From Vibrio sp. Isolate32 (GTDB lineage Bacteria; Pseudomonadota; Gammaproteobacteria; Enterobacterales; Vibrionaceae): 64,000 nt of DNA. The stretch is from NCBI RefSeq assembly GCF_022397955.1, contig NZ_JAKEUQ010000004.1:124001-188000 (forward strand), read 5' to 3'. Of the stretch, positions 7,452 to 45,022 are shown piece after piece. Under the pieces are notes generated by a model. It did not search any database. It was not told the DNA's origin and was given only the letters and a program-made list of their open reading frames with translations. The position numbers and the translations under genes are program-made. Position 1 is the first letter of the stretch. Every line of letters starts with the position of its first letter.

Positions 7452-7459
7452 TGGATTAA

Positions 7460-8158: not shown

Positions 8159-8663
8159 TACCTTTCCTTATAACCAAAACTTACCATCAAAAGGTGTCGT
8201 TACTTGTGGCAATTACCGAATCGACAAGCTCTATAAAACTGTAGACAACAATTTCAAACAATAGAGCGATTTATATCGAATTATTAATAACTTGTACTTT
8301 GAAAAGAGGGAAATAGATCAGTGCAAGGAAGAATGTAGATTTTGGTGGGAGCTTAGAGTCACCTAGGAGGCTCTTAGATTTTTCGTCAGATGGTTCGTGC
8401 TGTTTCTTTAGTTTGTTCCTGTTCCATTCTTTCTAATGCTGTTCATTGTGTAAAATCTTGTTACTCAAATTAAACATTTCTAAAAGCAGTGACAGGTTGA
8501 TTTTTAACTCATAGCACTTTACCAACTATGAGTTAGCCTTTGTGGCTCATTCACCAATATCAACAGTTTTACTCAGTTCAGATGTAATGTTGGAAGATGG
8601 GAATGACAACGACTTAGCCATGCTCTAAGCGTCGTTAAGTCGTTATTGGTTTGAGGTCAGGGA
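8159..8663. other. Intergenic region with one inverted repeat
   Basis: These 505 bases hold the promoter region of the att-like operon and the end of the nucleotidase transcript. An inverted repeat, ACGACTTA / TAAGTCGT, lies at 8609-8643, downstream of the nucleotidase stop. It lacks a clean T-run, so it is at best a weak terminator. A 27-codon plus-strand frame at about 8391 has no good ribosome-binding site and was not called. Confidence 0.45.
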
Positions 8664-10568
8664 TTAATTGAGCGCTTCAATCAGAGTGATTTCGCGTTTG
8701 ATTTGCTTACTCTCTTGCTCAGTCGCCTGCGGCAGTTTCTTTTCGCGTGTGGTTATGGCTGCTTGTTTGGCTTCGTCAGATTTGAACATCAGTTCTTTCA
8801 CGTTGATAGAAGCGATGTTTGTGTAGCGGCCATCGTCACTGGTCGGGATTGATATGGTTTCATCGTTAATCAATGACTTTACGATCTCACGCTGTTCATT
8901 GTAACGGCTCTCTAAACCAGAAAGTGCCCATCGTTGTTGAGGCTTGCCTTCATACTGACCGTTCTTTTCTTCCTTAAGAAACTTGATGGTCATATTACGG
9001 ATCGTGCCTGCTTCTTCTCCATACTCTGCTTCCGTATCAAAAAGTACAGGGAACGATTCACCTTCTAGCACGCCGCCTTTCTTGGTTAGATGACCCATTC
9101 GATAGCTATTCATACCAATACGGATCTTTGTTTGATCAGTAACCGGTGTGCCATCAGCAAACACAAGGTTGGTGATGCGGGTACCTGCAGGTTGAGTGAG
9201 GTCGATGGTATAAGTCACGCCCGCGAAGAAGTCATTGGTTGAGTATTTTGAAGCTCTGCGCTCAGGGTTAAAGCTGTAGGTTACATCGCCAGGTTGTACT
9301 GAGTTGAAGTAGCCCGCAGACCATTCCATGTAGGTTCTCAGCTCTTTGCCTGTCATCTGGTAGACAGTGATTTCGCCACCTGCGTATTGGTAGTTGTACG
9401 CGATGTCTTTGGCTTTGATTGGGCCAACATCGAGCTCGGCATTGTCGTTGTCTATTTGAAGTGCGATGACATTGGCTTTGGGTGCATAGAAGAAGCTCGC
9501 TTCTTGGAATAGCGCACTGATGCCAGTGTCTTGAACATGGACTTGAGGGATACCGCGGATTTCGTTTTCAGGGACTAAATCAACGCCGGTAAGCTGAGCG
9601 ACAGGTCGATTCGCCATTTCTCGGAGTTGTTTGTGATAAGGCTGGTATAACTCGTCCATATTCTCATCAGAGTCGATACCTTTAATTTTATAGGTGAAGC
9701 TGTCTTTGTTAACGAGAGTGAATTTGCCATCGCGCTCTTCAAATTGAAGATCGATACGAGATAGGGCGCGGCCATATTTGTCGGGTTCAGTAATAATAAC
9801 GCCATTTACAACGGCCTTATCGATGCGAGTGTGCATGTGGCCAGCGACGATGGCATCAAGCTCTGGGTTTGCATTGGCAATGTCGGTGACACCGGTGTCG
9901 GCAATGTCATTCTCGTTCTCAATCCCCATATGGGCAACCAATACGATGGCATCCACTTTATCATCAATTTCTTTGACGATTTTCTTCACTTCCAAGGTTG
10001 GATTAGTGAAAGTGACGCCTTCTAAACGGTTTGTACCTTGCGCAAAGACCTCCGTCATTGGGGTATCCATTCCTATCACACCGATCTTAATACCACCTCG
10101 TTCTAGAATGGTGTAACCCGGTAAGAATGGGTTTCCGTTTTTGTTCTTAATGTTGCCACCGAGAGACTGCCCTTTAAATTGGGTAACGGCTCTGTTGAGG
10201 GTTTTGAGGCCAAAATCGAATTCGTGGTTACCTAAAACCCACACATCGTATTTCATGTGATTAAAGCCAAGCATCATTGGATCAACGGGCTCGTCTTTGA
10301 AGGTTTCGACGAAGTTGCCTTGGATGGTGTCACCAGCGTCGACAAGGATAATGTTAGATTGCTCTTTTCGGATCTCACCAACCTTGGTCGCGATTTGGCT
10401 CAAGCTACCACGAGTGTTGAGTTTATCTGCCGCGTAATCCCACGCCATAAAATGACCGTGTATATCTGAAGTACCCAGTATCGTGACATCGTGTATGTCG
10501 CCATCAGCTGCAAAGGTGGGAAAGGCTAGAGATAGTAGGATGGCGCTTGATAGTATGTGTCTTTTCAT
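8664..10568 (-). CDS. Periplasmic bifunctional metallophosphatase/5'-nucleotidase (CpdB/UshA family)
   Basis: The protein of about 634 residues hydrolyses nucleotide phosphates in the periplasm for phosphate and nucleoside salvage. A signal peptide ending at AFA covers the first 20 residues; I prefer the ATG at 10568 over an in-frame GTG four codons upstream. The two-metal phosphoesterase motifs are all present: GTSDIHGHF, DAGDTIQG, GNHEFDFG, VAHMG and AGHMHTRI. The C-terminal nucleotidase domain has the substrate-binding YQYAGGEITVYQMTGKEL stretch. The length fits 2',3'-cyclic-nucleotide 2'-phosphodiesterase/3'-nucleotidases; which of CpdB or UshA activity dominates is open. It is monocistronic. 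Confidence 0.87.
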   Translation of the reverse strand: MKRHILSSAILLSLAFPTFAADGDIHDVTILGTSDIHGHFMAWDYAADKLNTRGSLSQIATKVGEIRKEQSNIILVDAGDTIQGNFVETFKDEPVDPMMLGFNHMKYDVWVLGNHEFDFGLKTLNRAVTQFKGQSLGGNIKNKNGNPFLPGYTILERGGIKIGVIGMDTPMTEVFAQGTNRLEGVTFTNPTLEVKKIVKEIDDKVDAIVLVAHMGIENENDIADTGVTDIANANPELDAIVAGHMHTRIDKAVVNGVIITEPDKYGRALSRIDLQFEERDGKFTLVNKDSFTYKIKGIDSDENMDELYQPYHKQLREMANRPVAQLTGVDLVPENEIRGIPQVHVQDTGISALFQEASFFYAPKANVIALQIDNDNAELDVGPIKAKDIAYNYQYAGGEITVYQMTGKELRTYMEWSAGYFNSVQPGDVTYSFNPERRASKYSTNDFFAGVTYTIDLTQPAGTRITNLVFADGTPVTDQTKIRIGMNSYRMGHLTKKGGVLEGESFPVLFDTEAEYGEEAGTIRNMTIKFLKEEKNGQYEGKPQQRWALSGLESRYNEQREIVKSLINDETISIPTSDDGRYTNIASINVKELMFKSDEAKQAAITTREKKLPQATEQESKQIKREITLIEALN

Positions 10569-10872
10569 AAGTATGTTCACATCGTGGTTTTCAGTATGGC
10601 GCTACCATATAGAATTGAGGTTATCTTGTGAGTGATTAATGTCATATTTCTAATGATATAAATAATTAATGTTTCAAATAAATGTGACTCATGACCATCT
10701 CAAAACAACTTAAGTTATGATGAAATCGGCCACAACTCTTCGCTCTCTTTTCAACACTTGAATCCTTTAATCAAACTTTCTAACTAAGCGTTGGTGTATT
10801 AATCAGCACGTTTGTAAGCTGTTGAACGTTTTGCCTGTTGAAATAAATAAGGTATATATCGCCAACCTTCAC

Positions 10873-11862
10873 TTACTGTGGGAGTAAGACGATCTTGCCA
10901 TCTAAACGTGTGGTTTTCGATTCAATGAGATCAATCGCGGTTTGAACTTTATCGAATGACAGATAGCGGTCAACGTCGAGCTGAATGTCGTTTGTGATGA
11001 AGTGATCTAGCATGGTTGTGAACTTATCACGGCGAACATCTTTACCTGCTGCTTCTTCCCAATAACGTAAGAAGAAGGTGCTGAAATCGATGTGTTGGCT
11101 TTTCGCGTACTCAAAGAAGCGTGGCTCGTAAAAATCTAGAGACAGCGTCCCATAGTTGATAAAACGCCCATTATTGCCAAGGGTGTGAATAAGATCGGTT
11201 CCGGGTGAACCACCAATTGCATCAAAGGCGACGGTTGGAGTAGGCAAGCCTAAGGCCTTAATTTGATTAACTAAATCATCGTTTGAATCTAATACCCAAC
11301 TTGTGGCAGTTGGGTATCGTTTCGGCTGTGATGTAACAACAATGATGTTGAAGCCGAGCGATGCTGATAATTGGGAGAAGATCTTACCGATGGCAGAGCT
11401 GCCTGCGTTAATGATCAACACATCTTCTTGGGTCAGCTTGGTTACTTCTGTCGTTAGGACCCATGCGGTTAGGGGATTAATGTAGAGCTGACAGGCGTAG
11501 CCATTATCTAAATGCTGAGGAATTTGGAATAGGTCATTTGGTGATACATCGACATAGTTCTGCCACGTTCCATTGGTTGCTACGAGCACTCGCTGGTTCA
11601 CTGCAAACTCAGCATTGCTGGACTCTACAAGCCTTCCTACTGCTTCAAACCCCGGTACTCTCGGCGGCTGGCGGCTATGTTTGTATTGGCCCACACCATA
11701 AATCGACAACAGATCACTAGGGTTGATGTTAGTCGCTTCAATTTGTACGCGAACTTTATCTTTGTCTAGTGCCCCTAAAGCGACATGTTCTAACTTGAGA
11801 GACTCTTTCGGCTGACCGAAACGGAACTGGCTAATTCGGGTATTTTGCATAGTGTCAGTCAT
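10873..11862 (-). CDS. Zinc-independent MDR reductase (quinone/enoyl reductase-like)
   Basis: The 329-residue protein belongs to the medium-chain dehydrogenase/reductase family. It has an N-terminal GroES-like domain (NINPSDLLSIYGVGQY, PRVPGFEAVGRL) and a Rossmann part with a degenerate NADPH motif, INAGSSAIGK. The zinc-binding cysteines of true alcohol dehydrogenases are missing. The pattern is closest to mitochondrial-type enoyl reductases and zeta-crystallin-like quinone reductases, which reduce C=C bonds with NADPH. It lies 19 bases downstream of the PhyH-like gene on the same strand, so the two are probably co-transcribed. The substrate is unknown. Confidence 0.82.
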   Translation of the reverse strand: MTDTMQNTRISQFRFGQPKESLKLEHVALGALDKDKVRVQIEATNINPSDLLSIYGVGQYKHSRQPPRVPGFEAVGRLVESSNAEFAVNQRVLVATNGTWQNYVDVSPNDLFQIPQHLDNGYACQLYINPLTAWVLTTEVTKLTQEDVLIINAGSSAIGKIFSQLSASLGFNIIVVTSQPKRYPTATSWVLDSNDDLVNQIKALGLPTPTVAFDAIGGSPGTDLIHTLGNNGRFINYGTLSLDFYEPRFFEYAKSQHIDFSTFFLRYWEEAAGKDVRRDKFTTMLDHFITNDIQLDVDRYLSFDKVQTAIDLIESKTTRLDGKIVLLPQ

Positions 11863-11881
11863 AGTTCGGGTACCTTATGGA

Positions 11882-12475
11882 TTATGAGTACTGCATTGAT
11901 TTTAAGTGTAGCGTGTTCATAAACAACCTTGGGTCGCTAATATTGCTCAACATAGCTGGTGTTGGTAAACCGTCGTCACCAACGCGGTTGACATAGTCTG
12001 CCGCCGTATCGAAGATTAAAATATCCAAAGCCAAACGATCCAAGCTATATCGGCCTCGGTGGAGCATATCCGCTGAAAACACCAATAAGTCGCCCGCTTC
12101 TGACGGTATCTGCTTGCCACCAGAGATATCATCGCTGCTCACTTTACCATTTTCTTCTTGGCGAACGTTGTACTCTTCTTCGTTATCCCAGCGCTTGTGC
12201 GTGCCAGGGATAAGCTCCATACCGGGCTCATCAAAAAGGGGAACACGCAGATGCAGTACCTGAGTTTTCATGATGACTTTCATCTGGTCATCAATGTCGT
12301 AGTCGTATTGACAGTCACGATGCCAGAAGTCTTTTTGTTGCGGGTTCACTGGGTTGAAGAACAGCCGTGTATTCATGAATGCCGGTTTGTTCGGAATCAC
12401 CGCACCTACCACATCAGGGTGAAAAAGATTCTGGTCAACTCCGCAGGGAGTTGTAACAGTAAGTACCCCGTGCAT
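11882..12475 (-). CDS. PhyH-like Fe(II)/2-oxoglutarate dioxygenase, N-terminus apparently lost
   Basis: The readable frame gives 197 residues with the iron-binding triad of phytanoyl-CoA dioxygenase relatives: HxD in FWHRDCQ and the distal His in HRGRYSLDR. Family members usually have about 260-300 residues, with an N-terminal helical region that is absent here. On the same strand a different frame opens at ATG 12527 and runs 30 codons to a TGA at 12438; its first residues look like a genuine N-terminus. I infer an internal deletion or frameshift that removed about 80 codons, so the enzyme may be non-functional. It lies upstream of the MDR reductase gene with 19 bases between them. Confidence 0.65.
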   Translation of the reverse strand: MHGVLTVTTPCGVDQNLFHPDVVGAVIPNKPAFMNTRLFFNPVNPQQKDFWHRDCQYDYDIDDQMKVIMKTQVLHLRVPLFDEPGMELIPGTHKRWDNEEEYNVRQEENGKVSSDDISGGKQIPSEAGDLLVFSADMLHRGRYSLDRLALDILIFDTAADYVNRVGDDGLPTPAMLSNISDPRLFMNTLHLKSMQYS

Positions 12476-12565
12476 GCTCTGGAGTACCTACTTCAAATTT
12501 AGCGGTTAATTTTATTTCTCGTTTCATGGTACTTCATCTACGGCAACTCAATGACTTAGCCTGAA

Positions 12566-12595
12566 TTGGGCAGATTCTCGTCATATTATTACAAT
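12566..12595 (+). promoter_or_regulatory. Possible sigma-70 promoter of the M23 peptidase
   Basis: TTGGGC at 12566-12571 and TACAAT at 12590-12595 are separated by 18 bases. Transcription would start near 12602, which favours the GTG at 12662 as the translation start. Confidence 0.35.
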
Positions 12596-12661
12596 GCATT
12601 GATGATTTATGCGTTTGAAAAGCATATCCTGTGCCTTTATGTCGTGGAAAGACCGTTTACC

Positions 12662-13954
12662 GTGTATTCAAAAATATTTCCCTCTCCGTTTGCTGAGCTT
12701 TCACCTGTAAAAAAAGTAGCTATTTTAGGGCTGCCACTTATTGCAGCGATTGGTGTTGCTCTGCAATCTTCACAATCGGATCTGACGAAAACGATCGATC
12801 TTGATTTACCAGACTCAAACGTTATTGAGTCCATTTTGTCACCTTCTTCTGTTACCGTTATTGAGCCTCCGACATTTGAGTATCAAATTCAAACGGGCGA
12901 TAACTTGAGTAGCATTTTCACTCAACTTGGATTTTCTTATAAATCGATGATGAGCGTAATGGAAACCGATTTGAACTTTCTTGCGTTAGATACGCTTCGT
13001 CCGGGCAATACATTACGTTTCTGGCGTGATGAAGCTACGGGTGAACTTTCCAAAATGGAACTTCAATTTAGCGTCGCAGATAAAGTGGTTTATCGACTGC
13101 TTGACGACGGTAGCTACGAATTCAAAGATATTTCTATTCCAGGTGAATGGAAGCAAAAGCCTTTAGTGGGTGATATTCAAGGCAGTTTCTCGATGTCGGC
13201 TAATAAGGTTGGCCTGAATAGTCTTGAGATTGATCATATTGTTACTCTATTGAAAGATAAGCTGAATTTTAGCCGTGATTTGCGTGCTGGTGATCAGTTT
13301 GAAGTGCTTCAAAAGGCTCAATTTGTTAATGGTGTTGCAACCGGAAAACGTGAAATTGAAGCGATTAAGATCATGAATCGTAACCGCGTTGTGTCAGCGT
13401 ATTTACATACTGATGGGCAATATTACGATGCCAATGGTGATAGCTTGCAGCGTGCTTTCCAACGTTACCCTGTGAGCAGTGGTTGGCGCCAAAGTTCTCA
13501 ATTTAATCCTAAGCGCTTACACCCCGTGACTGGGCGAGTCTCACCGCATAACGGTACAGATTTCGCGACGCCGATTGGCACCCCAGTTCAAGCGACGGGT
13601 GATGGCAAAGTGATTATGACTCGTAAGCACCCATACGCAGGTAATTACGTTGTTATTCAGCACGGCAGTACTTATAAAACACGCTACCTACATTTGAGTA
13701 AAATCCTCGTGCGTAAAGGACAAACGGTATCTCGTGGTCAGCGTATTGGTTTATCAGGCAAAACAGGTCGAGTGACAGGTCCACACTTGCATTACGAACT
13801 GATTGAACGTGGTCGCCCTGTTGATGCTATGAAAGCAAACATCCCAATGGCAGATTCTGTGCCGAAAAAGGAAAAAGCGACGTTTGTAGCTGCAAGAGAT
13901 GAAGCTGACAAGTTGCTAAAGGTAGCGTTAGAAGCACAATCTAATAACAGCTAG
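12662..13954 (+). CDS. M23 family murein DD-endopeptidase (ShyA/MepM-like)
   Basis: The protein of about 430 residues cuts peptide cross-links in peptidoglycan to allow wall growth. After a short cytoplasmic start it has one membrane anchor (VAILGLPLIAAIGVAL). An OapA/LysM-like domain with YQIQTGDNLSSIF follows, then an intermediate domain, then the LytM/M23 domain with zinc ligands in PHNGTDFATP and GPHLHYEL. The frame is open upstream to a TTG at 12566 and an ATG at 12602, but neither has a ribosome-binding site; GTG 12662 precedes a typical N-terminus. The start is therefore uncertain. Single gene with its own terminator. It is related to V. cholerae Shy endopeptidases; the exact orthologue was not determined. 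Confidence 0.88.
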   Translation: MYSKIFPSPFAELSPVKKVAILGLPLIAAIGVALQSSQSDLTKTIDLDLPDSNVIESILSPSSVTVIEPPTFEYQIQTGDNLSSIFTQLGFSYKSMMSVMETDLNFLALDTLRPGNTLRFWRDEATGELSKMELQFSVADKVVYRLLDDGSYEFKDISIPGEWKQKPLVGDIQGSFSMSANKVGLNSLEIDHIVTLLKDKLNFSRDLRAGDQFEVLQKAQFVNGVATGKREIEAIKIMNRNRVVSAYLHTDGQYYDANGDSLQRAFQRYPVSSGWRQSSQFNPKRLHPVTGRVSPHNGTDFATPIGTPVQATGDGKVIMTRKHPYAGNYVVIQHGSTYKTRYLHLSKILVRKGQTVSRGQRIGLSGKTGRVTGPHLHYELIERGRPVDAMKANIPMADSVPKKEKATFVAARDEADKLLKVALEAQSNNS

Positions 13955-14009
13955 CTAGGCCTCTTTAAGGTAACCCTGAATGAGGCTGTTACTCATCAAG
14001 TAGTATACT

Positions 14010-14059
14010 AAAGCCGTGAGAGCATCACTCTAAACAGAGTCCTGCTTTCGCGGCTTTTC
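14010..14059 (+). terminator. Terminator after the M23 peptidase
   Basis: AAAGCCG pairs with CGGCTTT, with an inner second stem (TGAGAGCA against TGCTTTCG, imperfect) and a following short T-run. It lies between convergent genes and could serve both. Confidence 0.65.
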
Positions 14060-14086
14060 TGATCTTGGAGTAACTAAAGCAAGTAT

Positions 14087-15940
14087 TTAAGCTAACGGTT
14101 CTGAGTGAGTCACGTAACTGACGATAGCTTCAGGTCGCATCGGTGGTGAGTAGAGGTATCCTTGTATCTTGTCACATCCCATAGCGTGCAGTTTTTCTAA
14201 TTGTTCACGCTTCTCTACGCCTTCCGCAATTAGTGATACGTCTAGCCTATGGGCAAGTTGAACAATCAACCAAACAACGCTCTCAGAGGTTGAATTGGTC
14301 AACAAATTACGGATAAAGGTGGCATCAATTTTAATGCAATCGATAGGGTAGCTGTGAATGTAGTTCAAACTGGAGTAGCCCGTACCGAAATCATCAAGCG
14401 CAATGGTAAAGCCTTGTCCTCTCAGGAAGTTTAGTGCCGATTTGGTCTCTTGAGTTGGAGACAACAACACAGTTTCGGTTAGCTCAATAACAAACTCATC
14501 AGCTTTAAAGTGATGCTGTTCAATGGTTCTAGTGAGATAGGAAATATAGCGCTTAGAGTCGGTAAGCTCATGCGCGGAACAGTTTATCCCAAGCTTGATC
14601 TTGTAACCTAAACCTTGTTCTAACGTGGTTTTGGCGCGGCATACCAATTCAATAATACGCTCACCTAGCTCGACAATTAGCCCTGACTCTTCAGCTACTT
14701 GAATGAACTCTACTGGTGAGATGTCACCGTGTCTGGCAGTTTTCCAGCGAGTCAGTACCTCGAAATATTGCCACTGTGCATCACCTTTGCCCACAATGGG
14801 TTGCACAACTACATACATTCCATTGCTGTCGGGGACATAGCTTTGTGATATTGGGTTTTCGAGTTCATTGCGCAACGCAGCGATTAACTCGGTTTTTCTT
14901 TGGTAGCGAGATCTCAAGTGGGTGTCATAGCATTGAATATGGTTATCTTGACTGTGCTTGCACTCTTTAAGAGCTAAACTGGTGTTGAAGATGATCTGTT
15001 CTATGTCTTTGTTATTCCCATCTGAACGGGCAATGCCGATACTAACGTCGAAATCGATTTTGATATCAACATTACTGTAACCTTGCTTTATCTTGGGTAG
15101 GATTTGCTCGCAAACTGCTATTGGGTCCGAATGATAGGTAATGAAAGCAAACTCATTGCCAGCAGTCCGGAAAGTCAGATTGCTTTCGGGTAAGGTTCTA
15201 CGCAATATTTCTGCGACAAATTGAAGTACCTTATCGCCAATATAATTGCCGTGCATGTCATTGATGGCTTTGAAGCTATTGATGTCGAGCAGAGCGAGAG
15301 AGAATGGAGTGACGCTCTGTTGAGTGATCGATTCTAAGGTATCAGACAAGCAGCTTCGGTTTAGTACTCCCGTTAAGCTGTCGTGTGATACTTCGTAACG
15401 GAGTTGATTAACCAGTTGTTCAGAACGGTCGTTGAACCACATTTCACGCAAGGTGTGGATGATGATGTCAGCGAACAATTGGTGGTGTTTTATCACGTCT
15501 TGTTGTTGAACAGGACTTAGAGGCGAGGCAAACGTTGAGAACAACACTCCCATCACTTCACCACTTTGAGTACGAGTAGGGATCGCGATGGAGTTTTGTG
15601 AGGTGATTTCCTGTCTAAATGCCGATGTTGGCAATGACTGGATGACATGCTGAGCAAACGAGCAATCCGGGTGTCTTTGATTGACTGCTTGTTGGTAGAT
15701 CTGTCCATGACGTGCATTGATTTTATCATGTATTACATGGTCAGAGTGGGCGATCACCAAAGGAACGATTTGATCTGGGAAGTGCTTCTTCTCAATGATG
15801 CTGGTGTACTGAGTACCAAAGGTTTGATGTAAAGTAAGTACGGCTGACTCTAAAAGGTCGATACCTTCCAATTTCAGTAAACGACCAATGCGCTCTGTGT
15901 CTATCATGCTGTTATGCGTATGTTGAGTCATGGTCACCAT
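14087..15940 (-). CDS. GAF-GGDEF-EAL cyclic-di-GMP phosphodiesterase
   Basis: The 617-residue soluble protein has an N-terminal GAF-like sensor part (about 1-165). A GGDEF domain follows whose signature is degraded to AGNEF, so diguanylate cyclase activity is unlikely. The C-terminal EAL domain has EVL in place of EAL but keeps NCSAHEL, ELTETVLL, DDFGTGYSSL, IKIDATFI, AEGVE and the QGYLYSPP end, so it should hydrolyse c-di-GMP. The inactive GGDEF domain may act as a GTP sensor for the EAL part. In vibrios such proteins tune motility and biofilm. It is a single gene with no transmembrane segment. Confidence 0.92.
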   Translation of the reverse strand: MVTMTQHTHNSMIDTERIGRLLKLEGIDLLESAVLTLHQTFGTQYTSIIEKKHFPDQIVPLVIAHSDHVIHDKINARHGQIYQQAVNQRHPDCSFAQHVIQSLPTSAFRQEITSQNSIAIPTRTQSGEVMGVLFSTFASPLSPVQQQDVIKHHQLFADIIIHTLREMWFNDRSEQLVNQLRYEVSHDSLTGVLNRSCLSDTLESITQQSVTPFSLALLDINSFKAINDMHGNYIGDKVLQFVAEILRRTLPESNLTFRTAGNEFAFITYHSDPIAVCEQILPKIKQGYSNVDIKIDFDVSIGIARSDGNNKDIEQIIFNTSLALKECKHSQDNHIQCYDTHLRSRYQRKTELIAALRNELENPISQSYVPDSNGMYVVVQPIVGKGDAQWQYFEVLTRWKTARHGDISPVEFIQVAEESGLIVELGERIIELVCRAKTTLEQGLGYKIKLGINCSAHELTDSKRYISYLTRTIEQHHFKADEFVIELTETVLLSPTQETKSALNFLRGQGFTIALDDFGTGYSSLNYIHSYPIDCIKIDATFIRNLLTNSTSESVVWLIVQLAHRLDVSLIAEGVEKREQLEKLHAMGCDKIQGYLYSPPMRPEAIVSYVTHSEPLA

Positions 15941-16092
15941 CCTTAGTTAACCAGATTCACTGTGTAAGCTGTATGTGTATGCTCTTGTCTATACGATTTT
16001 GGCACTATGCAGTTTTAAGCTTTAGTACTTATATGCGTCTAGTTTATTATTGTTCGTATTGTATAACTTTTCAAATTAAAATGTGACTTATT

Positions 16093-16989
16093 TCACAGAG
16101 CCTGAGTGCTGCGCTCTTTGTCTAACCTCTCTTTTAAATGATCCAAAAATAACTTGGTTCGCGTATGTGAGTAATCAAGCTTAGGGTAATACGCGTAAAC
16201 CATTACTTCGTCGGCAGTAATATTTGGCAATACTGGAACTAATGTCCCTTGTTTTAGATCCTCTTTGATCATTGCTTTAATGGTTAAGAGTACGCCCATT
16301 CCTCGCTTCGCAGCATGAAACAAGGCCTCTGGATTGGTGGTAGCAAAGTTGCCATTGAGAGTGATGCGTTGCCCTTTAGTGAGTGTGACTTCTCGGGTAG
16401 GGCGCTCTCCCCAAATCAAAGAGTTGTGTTGTTCTAAGTCCTGCTCGTTGGCGGGATAACCATGTTTAGCTAAATAGCTTGGCGCTGCATAGAAGCTGGC
16501 TTTGTGCTCAAACAGCGGTGTTTTCTTGAAGCTTAACGAGTTGAGCTGTTCCAGTTCACGGCTGATCACCAGATCTAATCCCAGCTCTGGTAATTGCCCT
16601 GGCGTGGTCGTGATCAGCTGCACCTTAATATCTGGATATTTTTCTAGGAAATCGCCCATGTGTTGAACGAGAAATTTAGAGCCAACTGCGATGGTGGCTC
16701 CAATTTTTAATAGGCCTGCGGGAGTTTGATTAACTGAGCGAGTTTCATCAATGATTGACTGCCAGTTATCGAGTTGATCTTTTGCTCTCTGATAGAAGAG
16801 TGCGCCTGCTTCGGTTTGGCTAATTGAGCGAGTGGTGCGCTTTAAAAGTTGAGTGCCAATGCGCTCTTCCAGCCAGCTTACTCTTTTGCTGATCGCTGAG
16901 CTGGTGGTGTTCAGTTTTCGAGCTGCACCATTGAAGCTACCTTCTTCCACTACTCTGACATAGCTTTTTACGTTAAGGATCCAATCCAT
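16093..16989 (-). CDS. LysR family transcriptional regulator
   Basis: The 298-residue regulator has an N-terminal winged HTH (residues 1-60; FNGAARKLNTTSSAISKRVSWLEERIGTQLL) and a substrate-binding domain. It resembles the CrgA/AaeR subgroup that starts directly with an aromatic-rich WILNVKSYVRVVEEGSF-type helix. It is transcribed divergently from the MFS exporter gene with 108 bases between them, the usual layout for local control. Two TAATTA boxes at 17009-17014 and 17029-17034, two helical turns apart, are candidate operator half-sites. The inducer is unknown. Confidence 0.9.
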   Translation of the reverse strand: MDWILNVKSYVRVVEEGSFNGAARKLNTTSSAISKRVSWLEERIGTQLLKRTTRSISQTEAGALFYQRAKDQLDNWQSIIDETRSVNQTPAGLLKIGATIAVGSKFLVQHMGDFLEKYPDIKVQLITTTPGQLPELGLDLVISRELEQLNSLSFKKTPLFEHKASFYAAPSYLAKHGYPANEQDLEQHNSLIWGERPTREVTLTKGQRITLNGNFATTNPEALFHAAKRGMGVLLTIKAMIKEDLKQGTLVPVLPNITADEVMVYAYYPKLDYSHTRTKLFLDHLKERLDKERSTQAL

Positions 16990-17097
16990 ATTATTTCCTG
17001 TCGGGACTTAATTAAATTCCAATTTAGCTAATTATCAATTTTTGGTTTTGAATGTAAACTCACCTAACGGACAAATTTCAAACGAATAGGGAATTTT

Positions 17098-32148: not shown

Positions 32149-32309
32149 CACTTTCGAGCTTGAAAGTGTCACAGAGCTTAAAAGTGTCATAAATTGACAT
32201 AAATTGACAGCCCCCATGTTTGCCGAGATCGGCGTCAGCACGTCTTTGGACAAAACTGTTTCAGCAACTTTGCTAAATTATCAATTAACCAATAACTACA
32301 GGTATGGCA
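32149..32309. repeat. Diverged copy C of the hairpin repeat, expanded
   Basis: A related but longer copy of the repeats at 41912 and 42997. It has the same hairpin with loop GAGCTT, and its stem, ACACTTTC / GAAAGTGT, keeps pairing although the bases changed. The tail words TTTGGACAAAA and AATAACTACAGGTATGGCA are shared. It also holds a tandem 10-mer (CATAAATTGA twice, 32188-32207) and a partial second hairpin arm. Confidence 0.55.
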
Positions 32310-32487
32310 TGTTGCTTTACTGAGTAACCTGTGTTGATGAGGCAAATCACAATCATAAAATCAATATGTATAGACATATAGACTGTGTTGTAAGCACACC
32401 ATGCATAGCAAGGCCTAATGTGGCCTTTATGCAACAAAATCCATTTTGTCACCATTTTTTGGGGACATGAGTTTAATTTTTTATATT

Positions 32488-32493
32488 TATAAT
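32488..32493 (+). promoter_or_regulatory. Candidate -10 box of the BKACE-HemB operon
   Basis: A perfect TATAAT lies about 35 bases upstream of the preferred BKACE start. No good -35 box is present at 17 bases, which suggests an activator-dependent promoter. The regulator encoded at the operon end is the obvious candidate activator (inference). Confidence 0.4.
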
Positions 32494-32527
32494 GGAGGCA
32501 ATTATATACTGTAAGAAATTGAAATAT

Positions 32528-33391
32528 ATGGATAATTTAATTATCACCGCCGCCGTTAATGGCGGAATCACTCCAAGAAGTAAGAACCCCGCCGTCCCAC
32601 ATACGCCAAAAGAAATTGCAGATGCTGTCGTTCAGTGCAGTGAGGCAGGCGCCAGTGTCGCGCATATCCACGCCCGTGATGAAGCGGGTAAGCCAAGCTA
32701 CGACAAAGACGTTTGGCGCGAGATCATCGAGCGTGTCCGCGAACATTCCGACATTATCCTCAACCTGAGTACATCGGGCCTCAACTTGCCACACGGCATG
32801 CCAGAAGAGGAAGCCTGGAATCATCTTCAGTACGGGCCAGACATCGCTTCCTTTAACTGTGGGTCAGTGAATCATGGCGACAAACCCTTCATCAACAGCC
32901 CCGCACTGGCAAAAAAACTCGCACTGGCGCTGAAGGAGCATCAGGTGACCCCTGAGATAGAAATTTACCATTCCGGGGTAATCCACGAGGCCATCACCCT
33001 TCAGCAACAAGGTTACTTGGACAAGAAGTTGGTGTTTGCGTTTGCAATGGGCATTCATGGTGGGGTCCGGCCGACCTGCAAAGACTTGCTGCATCTGGTG
33101 GACTGCCTTCCTAACAACAGCATCTGGTCAGCCATCGGGATTGGGCAGGCGCAGTTGCCGCTGAACACCTACTCGATTTTATTGGGTGGCCATGTCCGCA
33201 CGGGGCTCGAAGACAACATTTATTACCGAAAAGGTGAGCTCGCTACCAGCAATGCCCAGTTGGTGGATCGCATCGTCAGACTGTCTCACGAATTGGGACG
33301 GGATGTGGCCACTATCGATGAGGCCAGAACAATCTTAGGCCTAAACCCACAACCTGCCAAGCCCGACACCATCGCTGAGATAGCTGTGTAA
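32528..33391 (+). CDS. BKACE (DUF849) beta-keto acid cleavage enzyme
   Basis: The 287-residue enzyme belongs to the beta-keto acid cleavage family (TIM barrel, zinc). Known members use acetyl-CoA to cut a beta-keto acid into acetoacetate plus a CoA ester, the type being 3-keto-5-aminohexanoate cleavage enzyme (Kce). Its zinc ligands H46 and H48 (AHIHARD) are at the same numbering as in Kce, and E228 (GLEDN) matches the third. From memory, Kce uses a Glu at position 14 to hold the substrate amino group; here that position is Ile (NGGIT), so the natural substrate probably differs. ATG 32528 gives the family N-terminus; an in-frame ATG at 32492 is less likely. First gene of the high-G+C operon. 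Confidence 0.88.
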   Translation: MDNLIITAAVNGGITPRSKNPAVPHTPKEIADAVVQCSEAGASVAHIHARDEAGKPSYDKDVWREIIERVREHSDIILNLSTSGLNLPHGMPEEEAWNHLQYGPDIASFNCGSVNHGDKPFINSPALAKKLALALKEHQVTPEIEIYHSGVIHEAITLQQQGYLDKKLVFAFAMGIHGGVRPTCKDLLHLVDCLPNNSIWSAIGIGQAQLPLNTYSILLGGHVRTGLEDNIYYRKGELATSNAQLVDRIVRLSHELGRDVATIDEARTILGLNPQPAKPDTIAEIAV

Positions 33392-33418
33392 CCGCCTTCA
33401 AAACAAGGACTAGATAAC

Positions 33419-34102
33419 GTGTTAACCCTCAAATCCCAATCTAACATTAGCCCGTACACAGTGGTTATTAAAGGCGCTGAACTGAGCGCCGGCAACCCTG
33501 TGGTGATCCTTTTGCATGGACGCCGCCAAACTACAGACGATATGACGAAACTGATCAACAAATTGAACTTGGCTGAGGCGACCTATTATCTGCCGAGTGC
33601 ACCCGGCGCCACCTGGTATCCCCGAGGGTTCACCCGCGCTCTTGACGACAACCAGCCACAGTTAAATCAGGGGCTCGAGGTGATCGATCACGTCCTGCAA
33701 AACTTGATCTCACAAGGCGTGAGCCGCGAGCGCATCTGGATCATGGGCTTCTCGCAGGGCGCGTGCATGGCGGCCGAGTTCATCAGGCAATCTCAACAGC
33801 CGATGGGGGGCGTCATTTTATTCACTGGTGGACTGTTTGGTCCTCAGTGCCCGATAGCATCGGATCAAAAGCCCGTGTTTGATGGCATGGCGATGTTGCT
33901 CTCGGGCAGTCATACCGATACTTGGGTCTCCGCGGAACGTGTCACTCAGACGGCCGACTATTTTGAGCAGTTAGGAGCGAGTGTCCACCTTGAGATCTTT
34001 GCCGAGCGAGAGCACCGCATTATCCGATCGGAAATCGATCTGGCCAGAGGATTGATCACCGCCAGCTTCGCGGCGTCTCACAAGGAGGTGGCGCATGTCT
34101 AA
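33419..34102 (+). CDS. Alpha/beta-hydrolase esterase (phospholipase/carboxylesterase family)
   Basis: The 227-residue enzyme has the Abhydrolase_2 layout: oxyanion HGRRQ near 34-38, nucleophile S112 in GFSQG, an acid at D167 in SGSHTD and H199 in EREHRI. It hydrolyses esters or thioesters of small acyl groups. GTG start at 33419 with AAGGA upstream; it is 27 bases after the BKACE gene, and its end overlaps the thiolase start by eight bases, so it is in the same operon. In this context it may release a product from CoA or an ester intermediate (inference). Confidence 0.88.
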   Translation: MLTLKSQSNISPYTVVIKGAELSAGNPVVILLHGRRQTTDDMTKLINKLNLAEATYYLPSAPGATWYPRGFTRALDDNQPQLNQGLEVIDHVLQNLISQGVSRERIWIMGFSQGACMAAEFIRQSQQPMGGVILFTGGLFGPQCPIASDQKPVFDGMAMLLSGSHTDTWVSAERVTQTADYFEQLGASVHLEIFAEREHRIIRSEIDLARGLITASFAASHKEVAHV

Positions 34103-35297
34103 TGCGTACCTGTGTGATTTCGTCAGAACCCCGATTGGCCGCTACGCCGGTGCATTGTCGTCGATCCGCGCGGACGATCTGGCCGCCATCACGTTAAAAG
34201 CACTCACAGAACGTCACCCAATGCTCGACTGGCGTCGCGTCGACGATGTGATTTTGGGGTGTGCGAACCAAGCGGGTGAAGACAACCGCAACGTCGCCCG
34301 AATGAGTTTGCTGCTGGCCGGACTGGACACCCAAGTGCCGGGGTCCACTGTCAACCGACTGTGTGCGTCTGGGATGGAAGCTGTGTCTAACGCCGCGCGA
34401 GCCATCAAAACGGGCGAAGCGCACCTAATCATTGCCGGCGGGGTGGAGTCGATGTCACGCGCACCGTACGTGCTTGGAAAAACCGACTTGCCGTTTGCCC
34501 GCGACGCCGAATTCTATGACACCACCATGGGCTGGCGTTTTGTGAATGCCAGATTGGATGAGATGTACGGCACCTGCTCGATGCCAGAGACCGCGGAAAA
34601 CCTGGCAGTCAAATTCGGCATTAGCCGAGATGAGCAGGACGCGTTTGCCTTTTGGAGTCAGACCAAATACGCCGCGGCGCAAGAACGGGGGTTCTTCCGT
34701 CACGAAATTGTCCCGGTCGAAGTCGCGCGCAAACGTCAGAGCCCGTTGGTTATCGAGACCGATGAGCACCCCAGACTCTCCAGTATCGAGACCTTGGCCA
34801 AACTCAAACCCGTGGTGCACCCACAGGGTTCCGTAACAGCGGGAAATGCATCGGGCATTAATGATGGCTCGGCGGCACTCTTGGTCGCGTCGGAGCGGTC
34901 ACTGACCGATCACCAACTGGTGCCCAAAGCGCGCATTGTGGCCACGGCGTGTGCCGGCGTTGAGCCTAGCATTATGGGATTTGGCCCGGCGCCGGCGATC
35001 AAAAAGGTCCTGGAACTCGCTCAGTTGTCGCTGGATCAGATGGACGTGATTGAAATCAATGAAGCCTTCGCCTCACAGGTCCTCTCGGTGGTCAACCACC
35101 TGGGGATTGACGGCGACGATCCGCGCCTCAATCCCAATGGCGGCGCGATTGCGCTGGGCCACCCGCTGGGCATGAGTGGCGCGAGGGTGATTGGTACGGC
35201 AATGAATCAACTCATCCAGCATCAGGGACGCTATGCGCTGTGCAGTTTGTGTATCGGAGTAGGCCAAGGCATGGCAATGATCATTGAGCGCGTGTAA
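34095..35297 (+). CDS. Thiolase (acetyl-CoA/beta-ketoadipyl-CoA acyltransferase family)
   Basis: The 400-residue enzyme carries all thiolase catalytic residues: Cys90 in [10 protein letters not shown], the NEAF motif near 347, His in [11 protein letters not shown] near 356 and Cys386 in CIGVGQG. It either condenses two acyl-CoAs or splits a beta-ketoacyl-CoA. The NRLCASG and MSRAPYVL stretches put it close to PcaF/PaaJ-type thiolases. Together with BKACE it could build or break acetoacetyl-type units. It overlaps the esterase gene by eight bases. Local G+C is high: 37 of 60 bases at 34321-34380. Confidence 0.93.
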
Positions 35298-35318
35298 CAC
35301 GCACCATCACGCGAGAGG

Positions 35319-35349
35319 GGCCTTGACTCGATAGTCTCGATCGAGGGCC
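35319..35349 (+). promoter_or_regulatory. Imperfect hairpin in the 95-bp gap before hemB
   Basis: GGCC at 35319 and GGGCC at 35345 bracket an imperfect inverted repeat with an internal bulge. It may attenuate or stabilise the transcript between the thiolase and HemB genes, which is the largest gap in the operon. There is no clear T-run. Confidence 0.3.
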
Positions 35350-35392
35350 ACTCATCACCCTTTTAGACAACCCATTCACAGGAGTACCACCC

Positions 35393-36418
35393 ATGGAATT
35401 CCAATCCAACCACACCACCCAACCGGGGATCACCAAACGCCTGCGCCGTTTGCGGACTACCCCCATGATCAGAGCGCTCGTTCGGGAACATGAGGTTCAA
35501 TTAAGCGATTTGATTTATCCGATATTTGTCGAAGAAACCATCACCAGTCCGGTGCCAGTCACCGGTCTGCCGGGATTGACCCGGATCCCTGAAACTCAAC
35601 TCGTCGATGAAATCCATGCGCTGGATGCGCTTGGGATCCGCTATGTAATGCCCTTTGGTATCAGTCATCACAAAGACGACATCGGGAGTGACACCTGGTG
35701 TCGAGACGGTCTGCTGAGTCGTATGACCAGCACGATTAAGTCAGCGTGTCCGCACATGATGGTGATCCCCGATATCTGCTTTTGCGAGTACACCACGCAC
35801 GGTCATTGCGGTGTCATGACCGATCAGGACGTTGACAATGATCAGACGGTGGCTCACTTGGTGAAGCAGTGTGTAAATGCCGCGCAAGCCGGGGCGGACA
35901 TGCTCGCCCCCTCTTCCATGATGGATGGCCAGGTAAGGGCGATCCGCCAGGGCTTGGATGAAGCGGGATTTGAGCATGTCGCGATACTGGCACACAGCGC
36001 GAAATTTGCGTCGGCGTTTTACGGGCCATTTCGACAGGCGGTTGAGTGCGAACTCAAGGGCGACAGACGCTCGTATCAGCTCGACTACGCCAATGCCAGA
36101 CAAGCGCTCAGTGAAGCCTTGCTGGATGAACAAGAAGGCGCGGACATTTTGATGGTCAAACCCGGTACCCCTTACCTGGACATTTTGGCCCAATTGCGCC
36201 GTAAAACTCAGCTTCCACTGGCGGCCTATCAAGTCAGCGGGGAGTATGCGGCCATCAAATGCGCAGCGCAAATGGGCATCTTAAACGAACAGGAAGCAGT
36301 GTTGGAAACTCTGATCGGCTTTAAACGAGCGGGCGCGGATCTCATCGTCACCTACTTTGCGAAACAGTTCGCGATCTGGCACCAATCGGAGCCAAACACA
36401 ATGTTAACGAAGGGGTAA
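35393..36418 (+). CDS. hemB: Porphobilinogen synthase paralogue (HemB family), complete active site
   Basis: The 341-residue enzyme has every recognisable catalytic element of porphobilinogen synthase, which joins two 5-aminolevulinates into a pyrrole. The zinc cysteines are C129, C131 and C139 (DICFCEY, HGHCG). The two active-site lysines are K204 (SAKFASAFYGPF) and K256 (LMVKPGTPYLDI). The YQVSGEYA and KRAGADLIVTYFAK motifs follow. Its place inside a high-G+C operon with BKACE, esterase, thiolase and a carrier is not that of the housekeeping gene. It may be a specialised paralogue making a pyrrole metabolite, or a second, regulated hemB. AGGAG precedes the ATG. Confidence 0.9.
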   Translation: MEFQSNHTTQPGITKRLRRLRTTPMIRALVREHEVQLSDLIYPIFVEETITSPVPVTGLPGLTRIPETQLVDEIHALDALGIRYVMPFGISHHKDDIGSDTWCRDGLLSRMTSTIKSACPHMMVIPDICFCEYTTHGHCGVMTDQDVDNDQTVAHLVKQCVNAAQAGADMLAPSSMMDGQVRAIRQGLDEAGFEHVAILAHSAKFASAFYGPFRQAVECELKGDRRSYQLDYANARQALSEALLDEQEGADILMVKPGTPYLDILAQLRRKTQLPLAAYQVSGEYAAIKCAAQMGILNEQEAVLETLIGFKRAGADLIVTYFAKQFAIWHQSEPNTMLTKG

Positions 36419-36421
36419 CGC

Positions 36422-37305
36422 ATGGGCTTGAAAGACTATACCCTGTGCGTGTTCATAATGGCGATCTGGGGACTGAATTTTTCCGTCGTCAAACTGGGTT
36501 GGATACACTGGATCCGATGCTGCTGACCGCTTTGAGGTTTATCCTGGCGGCCATTCCAGCGGTCTTTTTTGTTAAGAAACCAGACGTACATTGGGGATAT
36601 CTGGCAGCCTATGGCCTGACGTTTTCGGTCGGGGTTTGGGGACTGTCCACCTGGGCGATCGGGGCGGGTTTATCCCCCGGCATGGCAGCGTTGCTTATTC
36701 AAACGAATGTGGTGTTCGGTTTGGGGCTGGGCTGGCTGTTACTCAAAGAGTCGGTGAGCCCGCTTCGATCGCTCGGGTCATTGATCGCATTGTGTGGTTT
36801 GGCCTTAAGCCTGACGGTATCCGACGGTTCTGTCACGCTGACCGGAGTGGGGTTGATTTTGGTGGCGGCGCTGTGTTGGTCGATATCAGGGGTGCTGTTA
36901 AAGCAATCCAACACCCAACACGTGTTCTCGTTCAGTGTGTGGTCGATGCTCTTTGCGCCGATCCCTCTGTGTCTCCTGTCCTACCTTCAGGTTGGGACCC
37001 AGGGCTTTACGGCTTTGGTGGACAATATAACCCTACCCGGTGTGTTTTCCATTGTGTGCCAGGCATATGCCACCACGTTGTTTGGATACTGGATCTGGAA
37101 CAAGTTGGTGGTGTCTTACCGCTTGTCGCATGTGGCCCCGTTTACGTTGCTCGTGCCCCTTTTTGCACTGTTGGGTTCAAGCGCTCTGTTTCATGAGGGC
37201 ATTTCTTCACAAAAAGTGGTAGGCTGCGCCCTGATAGCACTAGGTTTGTTGATTGGCAGCGTGCCTGCCGCCAAATTCACCGTGCTAGCACAGCGTCTTA
37301 GATAA
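36422..37305 (+). CDS. EamA/DMT family transporter, single-base frameshift near its start
   Basis: The gene should begin at ATG 36422, three bases after HemB. That frame gives a normal EamA start (MGLKDYTLCVFIMAIWGLNF, then SVVKLG) but hits a stop soon after. From about 36502 the family sequence continues in the next frame (LDTLDPMLLTALRFILAA onwards) to 37305. One missing T in CTGGGTTGGAT would explain it: GGT TTG GAT restores LGLD. The total span is 884 bases, not a multiple of three. The remaining EamA repeats of ten helices are intact. Either a real inactivating mutation, a sequencing error or a slippage site. A GTG at 36445 opens the downstream frame but gives a non-family start. A likely exporter for the operon's product. 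Confidence 0.8.
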
Positions 37306-37343
37306 ACGCCATCCTACGAGTACAACAAAAGAAGGTTCGCATT

Positions 37344-38063
37344 ATGACTCATCGTCAACCGTGTGTTCAGACCGCACGTAACCTTATGAATCGTATCTGG
37401 AATGACAAGATGACGGAGGCCGTGACGGAAGTGATGACCTCCCACACCGTGATAGAAAGTCCTCTTCAACTAACGGTAGGTTCTAACTCCTTTTGCGAGA
37501 CGCTGAGAGTGTGGCTGCGCGCTTTTCCTACATTAGAGTACAAAGAAAACCGCGTGATCACCCGTAAGAACGACATTGTGATTGAGTGGACGGCGAAAGG
37601 AAAGCATTTGGGGGAGTTCTTAGGTGTGTCGGCTACGGGGAAAGCTCTGGTCTACCAGGGCAGCTCACAACTGACGTTTGTCAATAGTAAAGTCAGCCAT
37701 TACGCTTCGGTCGTGGATTGCCAAAGTATACTCAACCAACTGATGGGCCGTTATACCATTCGCACGGAGCCTCTCAAGCCGAGAAGCGCTTCAGAAGAGC
37801 TGTATGCGGTCATCCCACAACTACTTTCCCCTTTCTTAACCCAGCGTCAGGTCGAGTGCCTCTCACTATCGACACTGAGTTTGTCGGTAAAACAAGTGGC
37901 GGCAACGTTGAACATTAAAGAGAGCTCCGTGCAGACACACCTCAAGCGTGCCTTCGAACTGCTGAACGTCAGCAATAAAAAAATGTTCATGGCGTACATC
38001 TGTGAGAACAACACAATTGAACTCTTAGTCAGAATGGGGATCTACCTGAAGCAAAACATCTAG
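37344..38063 (+). CDS. SnoaL-like domain fused to LuxR-type HTH regulator
   Basis: The 239-residue protein has an unusual layout. Residues about 1-150 look like a SnoaL/NTF2-type fold: TARNLMNRIWNDK, VIEWTAKGKHLGEFLGV and the ester-cyclase-like GKALVYQGSSQLTF. Residues about 185-235 form a LuxR-family HTH (LTQRQVECLSLS, SVKQVAATLNIKESSVQTHLKRAF). SnoaL folds bind small polar ligands, so this may sense the product or an intermediate of the operon it ends. It has no response-regulator receiver and no acyl-homoserine-lactone domain. G+C here is closer to 50%. It is 38 bases after the transporter. Confidence 0.8.
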   Translation: MTHRQPCVQTARNLMNRIWNDKMTEAVTEVMTSHTVIESPLQLTVGSNSFCETLRVWLRAFPTLEYKENRVITRKNDIVIEWTAKGKHLGEFLGVSATGKALVYQGSSQLTFVNSKVSHYASVVDCQSILNQLMGRYTIRTEPLKPRSASEELYAVIPQLLSPFLTQRQVECLSLSTLSLSVKQVAATLNIKESSVQTHLKRAFELLNVSNKKMFMAYICENNTIELLVRMGIYLKQNI

Positions 38064-43402: not shown

Positions 43403-44527
43403 TTAGCCACATTTTTTATAGTTAGACTCCAAACATATATTGGATGCTTCTTGTGCTTTACCAACATCAACAGGTGCCATTAACTTTTTCATAAAGTCAA
43501 ATGCCGACTTTGTATTTTTATATCCATTATATCTAGCAAGATTAAACCACATATACGCTTTTATATTATTTTGGAGTACGCCTTGGCCATTGGCGTACCT
43601 AACCCCAAGGTTATATTGAGCGATAGCATGTCCTTGCTCAGCAGCTTTTCGATACCAATACACAGCCTGCTTATCATTTTGGAGTACGCCTTGGCCATTG
43701 GCGTACCTTAACCCAAGGTTATATTGAGCAGACGCATACCCCTGCTCAGCAGCTTTTCGATACCAATACACAGCCTGCTTATCATCTTGGAGTACGCCTT
43801 CGCCATTGGCGTACATAACCCCAAGGTTATATTGAGCATCCGAATCTCCCTGCTCAGCAGCTTTTCGATACCAATACACAGCCTGCTCATCATCTTGGAG
43901 TACGCCTTCGCCATTGGCGTACATAACCCCAAGGTTATATTGAGCGATAGCATGTCCTTGCTCAGCGACTTTTTGATACCAATACACAGCCTGCTTATAA
44001 TCTTGGAGTACGCCTTTGCCATTGGCGTACATAACCCCAAGGTTATATTGAGCATCCGAATCTCCCTGCTCAGCAGCTTTTCGATACCAATACACAGCCT
44101 GCTTATCATCTTGGAGTACGCCTTCGCCATTGGCGTACATAACCCCAAGGTTATATTGAGCGATAGCATGTCCTTGCTCAGCGGCTTTTTGATACCAATG
44201 CACCGCTTGTTTATCATCTTGAGGCACGCCTTTCCCTTCACGGTACGTCGCACCAAGATTGTTTTGAGCCATAGCATGTCCTTGCTCAGCAGCTTTTCGA
44301 TACCAATACACAGCCTGCTTATCATCTTGGAGTACGCCTTCGCCATTGGCGTACATAATCCCAAGGTGATATTGAGCAGACGCATTCCCCTGCTCAGCCA
44401 AAGGAATCCACTCATTGTAGGCTGTTTTAAACTCGCCTTGATCGTAAGCATCAAGACCTTTATAAAAGTCTGCCGACTGTGCAAACGATGCAAACAAGAG
44501 CAAAGTAAGTGTAAGGATTCTTCTCAT
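43403..44527 (-). CDS. Periplasmic Sel1-repeat protein with eight tandem units
   Basis: The protein of about 374 residues has a signal peptide (MRRILTLTLLLFASFAQSA; ATG 44527 preferred over an upstream TTG). It consists mainly of about eight 36-residue SEL1-like units with the pattern AQYNLGVMYANGEGVLQDDKQAVYWYRKAAEQG. The units are so similar at DNA level that recombination or slippage can change their number. The last unit diverges (KAYMWFNLARYNG). Sel1 proteins scaffold protein-protein contacts. A long antisense frame across it is an artefact of the repeats. It is near an integron-type cassette and may also be acquired. Confidence 0.9.
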   Translation of the reverse strand: MRRILTLTLLLFASFAQSADFYKGLDAYDQGEFKTAYNEWIPLAEQGNASAQYHLGIMYANGEGVLQDDKQAVYWYRKAAEQGHAMAQNNLGATYREGKGVPQDDKQAVHWYQKAAEQGHAIAQYNLGVMYANGEGVLQDDKQAVYWYRKAAEQGDSDAQYNLGVMYANGKGVLQDYKQAVYWYQKVAEQGHAIAQYNLGVMYANGEGVLQDDEQAVYWYRKAAEQGDSDAQYNLGVMYANGEGVLQDDKQAVYWYRKAAEQGYASAQYNLGLRYANGQGVLQNDKQAVYWYRKAAEQGHAIAQYNLGVRYANGQGVLQNNIKAYMWFNLARYNGYKNTKSAFDFMKKLMAPVDVGKAQEASNICLESNYKKCG

Positions 44528-45022
44528 AGACAAAACTCTATTTGTAAAATGAAAATAAACAATACCTTTTTAAGCACACCAATTCAAAAATCGGTGTTCA
44601 TTATTCCTATTATGTTAAACAGGCAAGTTAGCTACCAATAAGACGCCTCAGAGCCCCTCAAACGCTCTTAGCAAAGATTTTGGACACTTTATCAAGGCGA
44701 TATGCTTCCATAACGCCTTGTAAGTTTATGACGTTTTAAGAGTGGTTTGTAGAGCAAAAGTCATCGAGTTTCTTTGAACTAACAACTGCACTCTAATACC
44801 CATTTTTAGTTCTTTATGAGTTTGGGTTTCAGATTAGTTCTATTAGGTCAAAAACTAATCGACTGTGATTGTGGACTTTTTAGCGAAACCAATTTCGGGG
44901 CAAAAATGAGTTATTTCACTACTCATTTTTGTCACTACTCATTTTTGTTGTGATCACTACTCATTTTTGCCTTTTTCATTAGTCTCAAAACACAATCTAT
45001 CAACTGTTATTGTCGACTATTG
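44528..45022. other. Intergenic region with repeated 15-mer
   Basis: Nearly 500 bases between the Sel1 and M3 peptidase genes without a gene. Its right part contains the short repeat cluster listed separately. The left part may hold the Sel1 promoter. Confidence 0.4.
44901..44969. repeat. Cluster of a 15-bp word, three direct copies and one inverted part
   Basis: CACTACTCATTTTTG occurs at 44917-44931, 44933-44947 and 44955-44969. Its reverse complement core, CAAAAATGAGT, lies at 44901-44911, so a hairpin with the first copy is possible. The same CAAAAATGAGT word occurs in repeat copy A at 41984-41994. Confidence 0.75.

Follow-up and report, generated by a model that had tools for sequence, protein, structure and literature searches.

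The last gene of a six-gene operon in the window, the 64,000-nucleotide stretch of Vibrio DNA that was analysed, encodes a 239-residue protein with an N-terminal SnoaL/NTF2 domain and a C-terminal LuxR-type helix-turn-helix (HTH). We consider it probable that this protein acts as a one-component regulator on the operon to which it belongs and that it is gated by a small molecule bound in the SnoaL cone. The two domains were detected by profile searches, a confident NTF2-type cone was predicted, and both the gene order and a 19-bp dyad upstream of the operon were conserved wherever the complete locus was found. The coordinates of the features are compiled in Table 1.

Table 1. Operon genes, domains of the regulator and candidate promoter elements, in window coordinates.
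Feature	Position	Strand	Basis or remark
Candidate operator GTCACCATTTTTTGGGGAC	32448..32466	+	19-bp 7-5-7 dyad, one asymmetric position
Candidate -10 hexamer TATAAT	32488..32493	+	read directly; consensus scan without match
KCE/BKACE	32492..33391	+	PF05853, 3e-93; below NCBIfam equivalog cut-offs
Alpha/beta hydrolase (Abhydrolase_2)	33419..34102	+	PF02230, 8e-15
3-oxoadipyl-CoA-type thiolase (PcaF-like)	34095..35297	+	TIGR02430, 654 bits (cut-off 597)
Second HemB, cysteine-bearing metal motif	35393..36418	+	NF009923, 589 bits (cut-off 507)
EamA-family transporter	36445..37305	+	PF00892, 1e-24
SnoaL-LuxR regulator	37344..38063	+	ATG start, 239-aa ORF, Pfam domains, predicted fold
SnoaL/NTF2 domain, residues 4-134	37353..37745	+	PF07366; predicted fold to residue 134
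HTH part, residues 150-239	37791..38060	+	PF00196 core 165-212; extra C-terminal helix 225-237

A sequence-only reading of the window had described a SnoaL/NTF2 pattern followed by a LuxR HTH, with neither a receiver nor an acyl-homoserine-lactone (AHL) domain, and the Pfam searches bore it out. PF07366 (SnoaL) matched residues 11-133 with an E value of 6.1e-18 (65.3 bits vs. a cut-off of 28.4), and PF00196 (GerE/LuxR HTH) matched residues 165-212 with an E value of 9.8e-10 (38.4 bits vs. a cut-off of 23.5). No receiver domain and no autoinducer-binding domain was matched at E ≤ 1, in a listing from which the HMMER filters remove most matches above about 0.1. At the same threshold there was no match to sigma region 2; a sigma region-4 match (8.5e-6) fell on the same helices as GerE and was weaker. 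In PADLOC there was a single match, weak and confined to the HTH, to a CARF protein (0.0036), and the top PDB match by sequence was AclR.

That reading had also proposed a structure prediction, and in the AlphaFold2 model, built from a 14-row alignment (mean pLDDT 87.6, pTM 0.73), the N-terminal part was predicted as an NTF2 cone. NTF2-type helices and strands ran confidently to residue 134, followed by a disordered, low-confidence linker at residues 137-149 (pLDDT below 50) and by helices 150-161, 167-176, 182-189, 193-207 and 212-221, with an extra one at 225-237. Residues 1-143 or so superposed on SnoaL-family structures with VIA-align Z scores of 16.9-19.7: the best match was 3kkg (Z 19.7, rmsd 2.1 over 137 residues), and further ones were AclR (17.9), AknH (17.2) and SnoaL (16.9). 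The HTH was recognized at the profile level, where the regulator family matched the HTHs of VraR, NarL and GerE at about 1e-6 to 1e-5.

Homologues were full length and the dN/dS ratio of the whole gene was 0.06-0.19 in five comparisons, in four of which dS was saturated (1.6-2.3); this indicates a real gene under purifying selection, in which the HTH was the more conserved half by dN.

We then compared the cone with the SnoaL active site. According to the passages of PMC6830212 that deal with these enzymes, SnoaL employs Asp121 and depends in addition on Asn33, Gln105, His107 and His119. The comparison covered Q105, H107, H119 and D121, and the residues were mapped via the AknH alignment on the assumption, consistent with the spacing of the residues, that AknH is numbered like SnoaL. 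The regulator has G106, S108, Y120 and S122 at these positions, and the four SnoaL residues were kept in none of 16 fusion proteins, which argues against SnoaL chemistry in the regulator. In annotated records, the NCBI product name of plasmid relatives is ‘ester cyclase’. Taken with the predicted SnoaL-family fold, and with IdmH, which the same passages of PMC6830212 present as a SnoaL-fold enzyme without Asp121 and His107, this name would suit a pathway enzyme whose HTH-like part serves another role. We regard this as improbable, given that the catalytic residues are missing in all 16 fusions and that the HTH scores above its cut-off and is, by dN, the better conserved part; the label would then hide a regulator. 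The loss of catalytic residues was nonetheless rejected as proof of a sensor, because all seven stand-alone SnoaL relatives lack D121 as well and its absence therefore does not single out a sensor. Three other SnoaL matches were present in the genome; one of them, in the 297-aa protein L004, came with no HTH by eye.

Positions W57, F61 and H88, of cone-facing type, were invariant in 16/16 fusion proteins and would fit a pocket that has been kept. This speaks against a dimerisation or partner-binding module that works without a ligand, the operon being controlled through protein contacts or through the abundance of the regulator itself. We hold such a module to be rather unlikely, although it has precedents: several NTF2-fold proteins, IdmH and SnoaL among them, are dimers or tetramers (in the passages of PMC6830212 on their structure), and the SnoaL extension of ECF41 contacts the sigma linker (in those of PMC8999054 and PMC9023288 on this group).

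The operon lies on one strand in the order KCE, hydrolase, pcaF-type thiolase, second HemB, EamA and regulator. An in-frame ATG at 32528 in the KCE gene corresponds to the start annotated in the plasmid relatives. Downstream of the regulator there is an ISL3 transposase, and a search of the + strand beyond the regulator gave no terminator. The genome holds two HemB (ALAD) genes, of which the operon copy is the second. In the alignment, the operon copy carries the cysteine-bearing sequence DICFCEYTTHGHCG as its metal motif, where the other HemB has DVALDPFTTHGQDG; the SAK and VKPG lysines are present in both copies. The N-terminal part of the EamA gene (window 36418-36520) was out of frame with the remainder, although L001, L002 and L003 each have a single uninterrupted frame; either the exporter is broken in the genome of the window or the sequence contains an error.

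The order and strand of the six genes were kept in all eight complete loci, namely the window, V. diabolicus (L001), Photobacterium salinisoli (L002), V. neptunius (L003), L021, L022 and the V. coralliilyticus plasmids L064 and L066. L040, where the contig ends after EamA and the regulator, was kept outside this set. With the regulator last of the six genes and the dyad invariant in 8/8 of these loci, the genomic link of the regulator to the operon, and to the promoter region named in the sequence-only reading, is strong. An operon-type KCE (at least 85%) was found in 7 of 296 genomes of the Vibrio family, six of them with the regulator; the seventh is L067, whose operon breaks off within the thiolase gene. 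Full-length SnoaL-LuxR fusions were detected in 11/296 genomes of the family. Besides the window's own genome, which is counted in each of the wider samples, full-length matches occurred in 2/295 genomes of the order (plus one split in two frames), 1/369 of the class and 0/398 of the phylum, so in the samples searched such a regulator is, as had been suggested, uncommon.

A related operon in L068 encodes a KCE (60%), a HemB (65%), a hydrolase (44%) and a thiolase (63%) in another gene order. In its 18-kb stretch there was neither EamA nor a match to the SnoaL-LuxR fusion, and an AraC-type gene adjoins the operon. At 5645-9422 of L068, the four-enzyme core KCE-HemB-hydrolase-thiolase is thus kept on its own. 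In L067 (about 6330-16997), the truncated operon is followed by genes that, by eye, resemble those of a cluster for type I secretion with RTX repeats.

Upstream of the operon, the dyad GTCACCATTTTTTGGGGAC, which reads GTCACCA-TTTTT-TGGGGAC, was invariant in the aligned upstream regions of 8/8 regulator-bearing loci. All 19 of its columns were invariant, compared with 42/66 downstream and 8/60 upstream columns (Fisher p 7e-4, dyad vs. downstream); the result was the same without L064, left out of the repeat since L064 and L066 are near-identical plasmids. The genome contains one exact copy. At up to two mismatches the dyad was not enriched in the genome (50 and 50 matches vs. 61 and 67 for the controls), and at up to three mismatches the window held one match vs. 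0.02 expected. The truncated operon of L067, where the regulator is absent, has the dyad with one mismatch, and the regulator-free operon of L068 has no match within four mismatches. That the regulator tracks the operon-type KCE (6/7), together with the mismatched dyad in L067 and its absence in L068, supports our reading of the protein as a regulator of its operon, and the palindrome at the operon promoter is probably where it binds.

A promoter had been placed near 32488 by the sequence-only reading, and TATAAT does start at 32488, with the invariant dyad just upstream (32448-32466); relatives have TATTAT at this candidate -10. A promoter scan of 32300-32600 returned one sigma-70-like site (32334-32361, with 1.3 expected by chance), none at the dyad, and no good -35 box for the operon promoter. 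Relative to the likely start, the dyad would lie at about -38 to -43, where lux boxes are also located. The position of the dyad and the lack of a good -35 box suggest activation over repression.

By megablast, window 32448-38054 aligned in 6/6 Vibrio plasmid records at 77%, from the first base of the dyad to the last codons of the regulator; two other plasmid records matched part of the thiolase only. Since the homology starts on its left side precisely with the dyad, a mobile segment could end there. A copy with two mismatches in L042, near an apparent transposase remnant, would agree with this; we set that copy aside because of this neighbouring sequence, presumably an IS21-type remnant. 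That the dyad is such an end, or the site of another regulator, with the SnoaL-LuxR protein acting elsewhere, appears very unlikely to us: the dyad does not recur around the opposite boundary of the segment, there is no site at the L068 operon, which is without the regulator, and in L025 and L027 a related site precedes the methyltransferase gene that neighbours a distant regulator.

These distant homologues share 22-34% identity with the regulator, and 5/296 genomes of the Vibrio family carry relatives at 30-34%. A SAM methyltransferase was located nearby in 8/9 non-operon loci, and in all five family relatives its gene is convergent next to the regulator; tested on the L024 copy, the methyltransferase was BioC-like, below the cut-off. 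In L025 and L027, which are related loci, 15 of the 19 bases of the operon dyad recur directly before the methyltransferase ATG, and 1 and 0 of 1000 Markov sequences, respectively, were equally good. These dyad-like sites lend further support to a regulator acting at the operon dyad. In L023, L024 and L026, a weak 18-base variant occupies the same place, with 320, 77 and 9 of 1000 Markov sequences as good. The pattern GTCNNCAAAAAATGNNGAC, drawn partly from sites that it then found, had eight exact matches in 15 genomes, six at the operon promoter and two at the methyltransferase promoter; at up to one mismatch, there were 21 matches vs. 20 for the reversed control. Sites just before the methyltransferase ATG would fit a repressor better there. 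No conserved block was seen by eye upstream of the distant regulators themselves.

Among the other loci, the methyltransferase is adjacent and on the same strand in L043, and adjacent in L042, where SnoaL and HTH lie in different frames, a split for which L042 was excluded from alignments A2 and A3. In L041, none of the ORFs with a length of at least 120 aa appeared to encode it. A distant homologue was also present in 60 Piscirickettsia salmonis plasmid records (three archaeal plasmid records were left out); in the one of the 60 that was examined, the plasmid L065, hemL, the regulator, a HAD hydrolase and a methyltransferase were found. At 6372-7655 of L065, the hemL, above the NCBIfam cut-off, adjoins the distant homologue, amid partition and conjugation genes. 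A perfect dyad just before the L065 methyltransferase was rejected as a related site: it differs from the operon dyad, and none precedes hemL or the regulator. The best match of L065 to the operon dyad had five mismatches and was located elsewhere, and no shared site was detected before the Piscirickettsia genes.

For the regulator in the window, we infer DNA binding, a ligand and the sign of control as follows. The LuxR/NarL-type HTH would bind the dyad just upstream of the operon -10, most likely as a dimer, and, as the regulator closes the operon, it would control its own expression together with that of the other genes. The NTF2/SnoaL cone, with its fold kept and the SnoaL acid-base residues gone, would be the sensing half and would most likely hold a small acid, β-keto or polyketide-like, that the KCE/thiolase/HemB pathway either produces or consumes. 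Such a ligand would alter the arrangement of the dimer or of the HTH, and thereby switch the operon.

A bolder scheme, to which we attach a low probability, casts the operon as a mobile unit for the biosynthesis of a diketo acid that acts as an antimetabolite of porphobilinogen synthase, with the SnoaL cone as the receptor of the product. The thiolase would join succinyl-CoA and acetyl-CoA to 3-oxoadipyl-CoA, and KCE, acting in reverse, would add acetoacetate to give a dioxo-diacid, which would decarboxylate to succinylacetone or a closely related compound. The second HemB, which differs in metal type, would be a self-protecting copy of the target, and EamA would export the product. A succinylacetone-type inhibitor with HemB as its protected copy is chemistry on paper, and a literature search of titles and abstracts returned no bacterial succinylacetone operon. 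Under this scheme, because the Piscirickettsia salmonis plasmid homologue adjoins an extra hemL, the family would comprise receptors of signals connected with the tetrapyrrole pathway. The presence of an extra hemB or hemL beside the regulator in two lineages raises the question of what is sensed around this pathway.

By its domains, the protein belongs to the LuxR/GerE HTH superfamily (with a GerE HTH match that exceeds the curated cut-off) and to the SnoaL-like/NTF2-like superfamily (profile above the cut-off and predicted cone fold). It is set apart from AHL-type LuxR receptors by a SnoaL N-terminal half in place of an autoinducer-binding domain, from NarL/FixJ response regulators by having no receiver domain at E ≤ 1, from SnoaL polyketide cyclases by the loss of all four catalytic residues in 16/16 fusion proteins, and from ECF41-type factors by having no region 2 at E ≤ 1 and a reversed domain order. 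It resembles LuxR-type one-component receptors and NarL-type response regulators in its N-terminal signal domain, C-terminal GerE HTH and dyad beside the promoter; unlike in those proteins, the signal domain is SnoaL/NTF2 and not autoinducer-binding, receiver or PAS. With the SnoaL-family cyclases and hydroxylases (SnoaL, AknH, AclR, SnoaL2) it shares the predicted fold of residues 1-143, but its catalytic residues are replaced and an HTH is fused.

The nearest known kind are the SnoaL-extended ECF41 sigma factors. The sections of PMC8999054 on such extensions list ECF41 (e.g. SigJ of M. tuberculosis), ECF56, ECF205, ECF294 and ECF295. As in ECF41, whose SnoaL-like domain is thought, in the same sections, to respond to a small ligand, the domain sits on a DNA-binding transcription protein; in ECF41, however, it is C-terminal on a sigma factor, whereas the regulator carries it in front of a LuxR-type HTH, at the N-terminus. 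No published SnoaL-LuxR regulator was found in searches combining SnoaL/NTF2 with LuxR/HTH in literature mostly outside subscription journals. The portions of PMC11264864 and PMC12542777 consulted describe no SnoaL-LuxR fusion, and OvmZ appears there (PMC11264864 / PMC12542777) as having no conserved domain; none of the sought terms was present in PMC3426412, on ECF41. If this reading is true, a LuxR-type protein that senses through a SnoaL cone would extend the short list of transcription proteins with this fold as a sensor, so far ECF41-like sigma factors. Given a single candidate operator, and an operon of six genes that occurs in Vibrio, in Photobacterium and on plasmids, the ligand question is directly testable.

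Two further observations were made. In two genomes of the class (L038 and L039, 1450-2805), SnoaL is fused to an NmrA/NAD-binding domain, according to Pfam on L038. At 43403-44533, the window encodes a protein with many near-identical repeats, which we take to be Sel1-like, and long overlapping ORFs on both strands arise there as a by-product.
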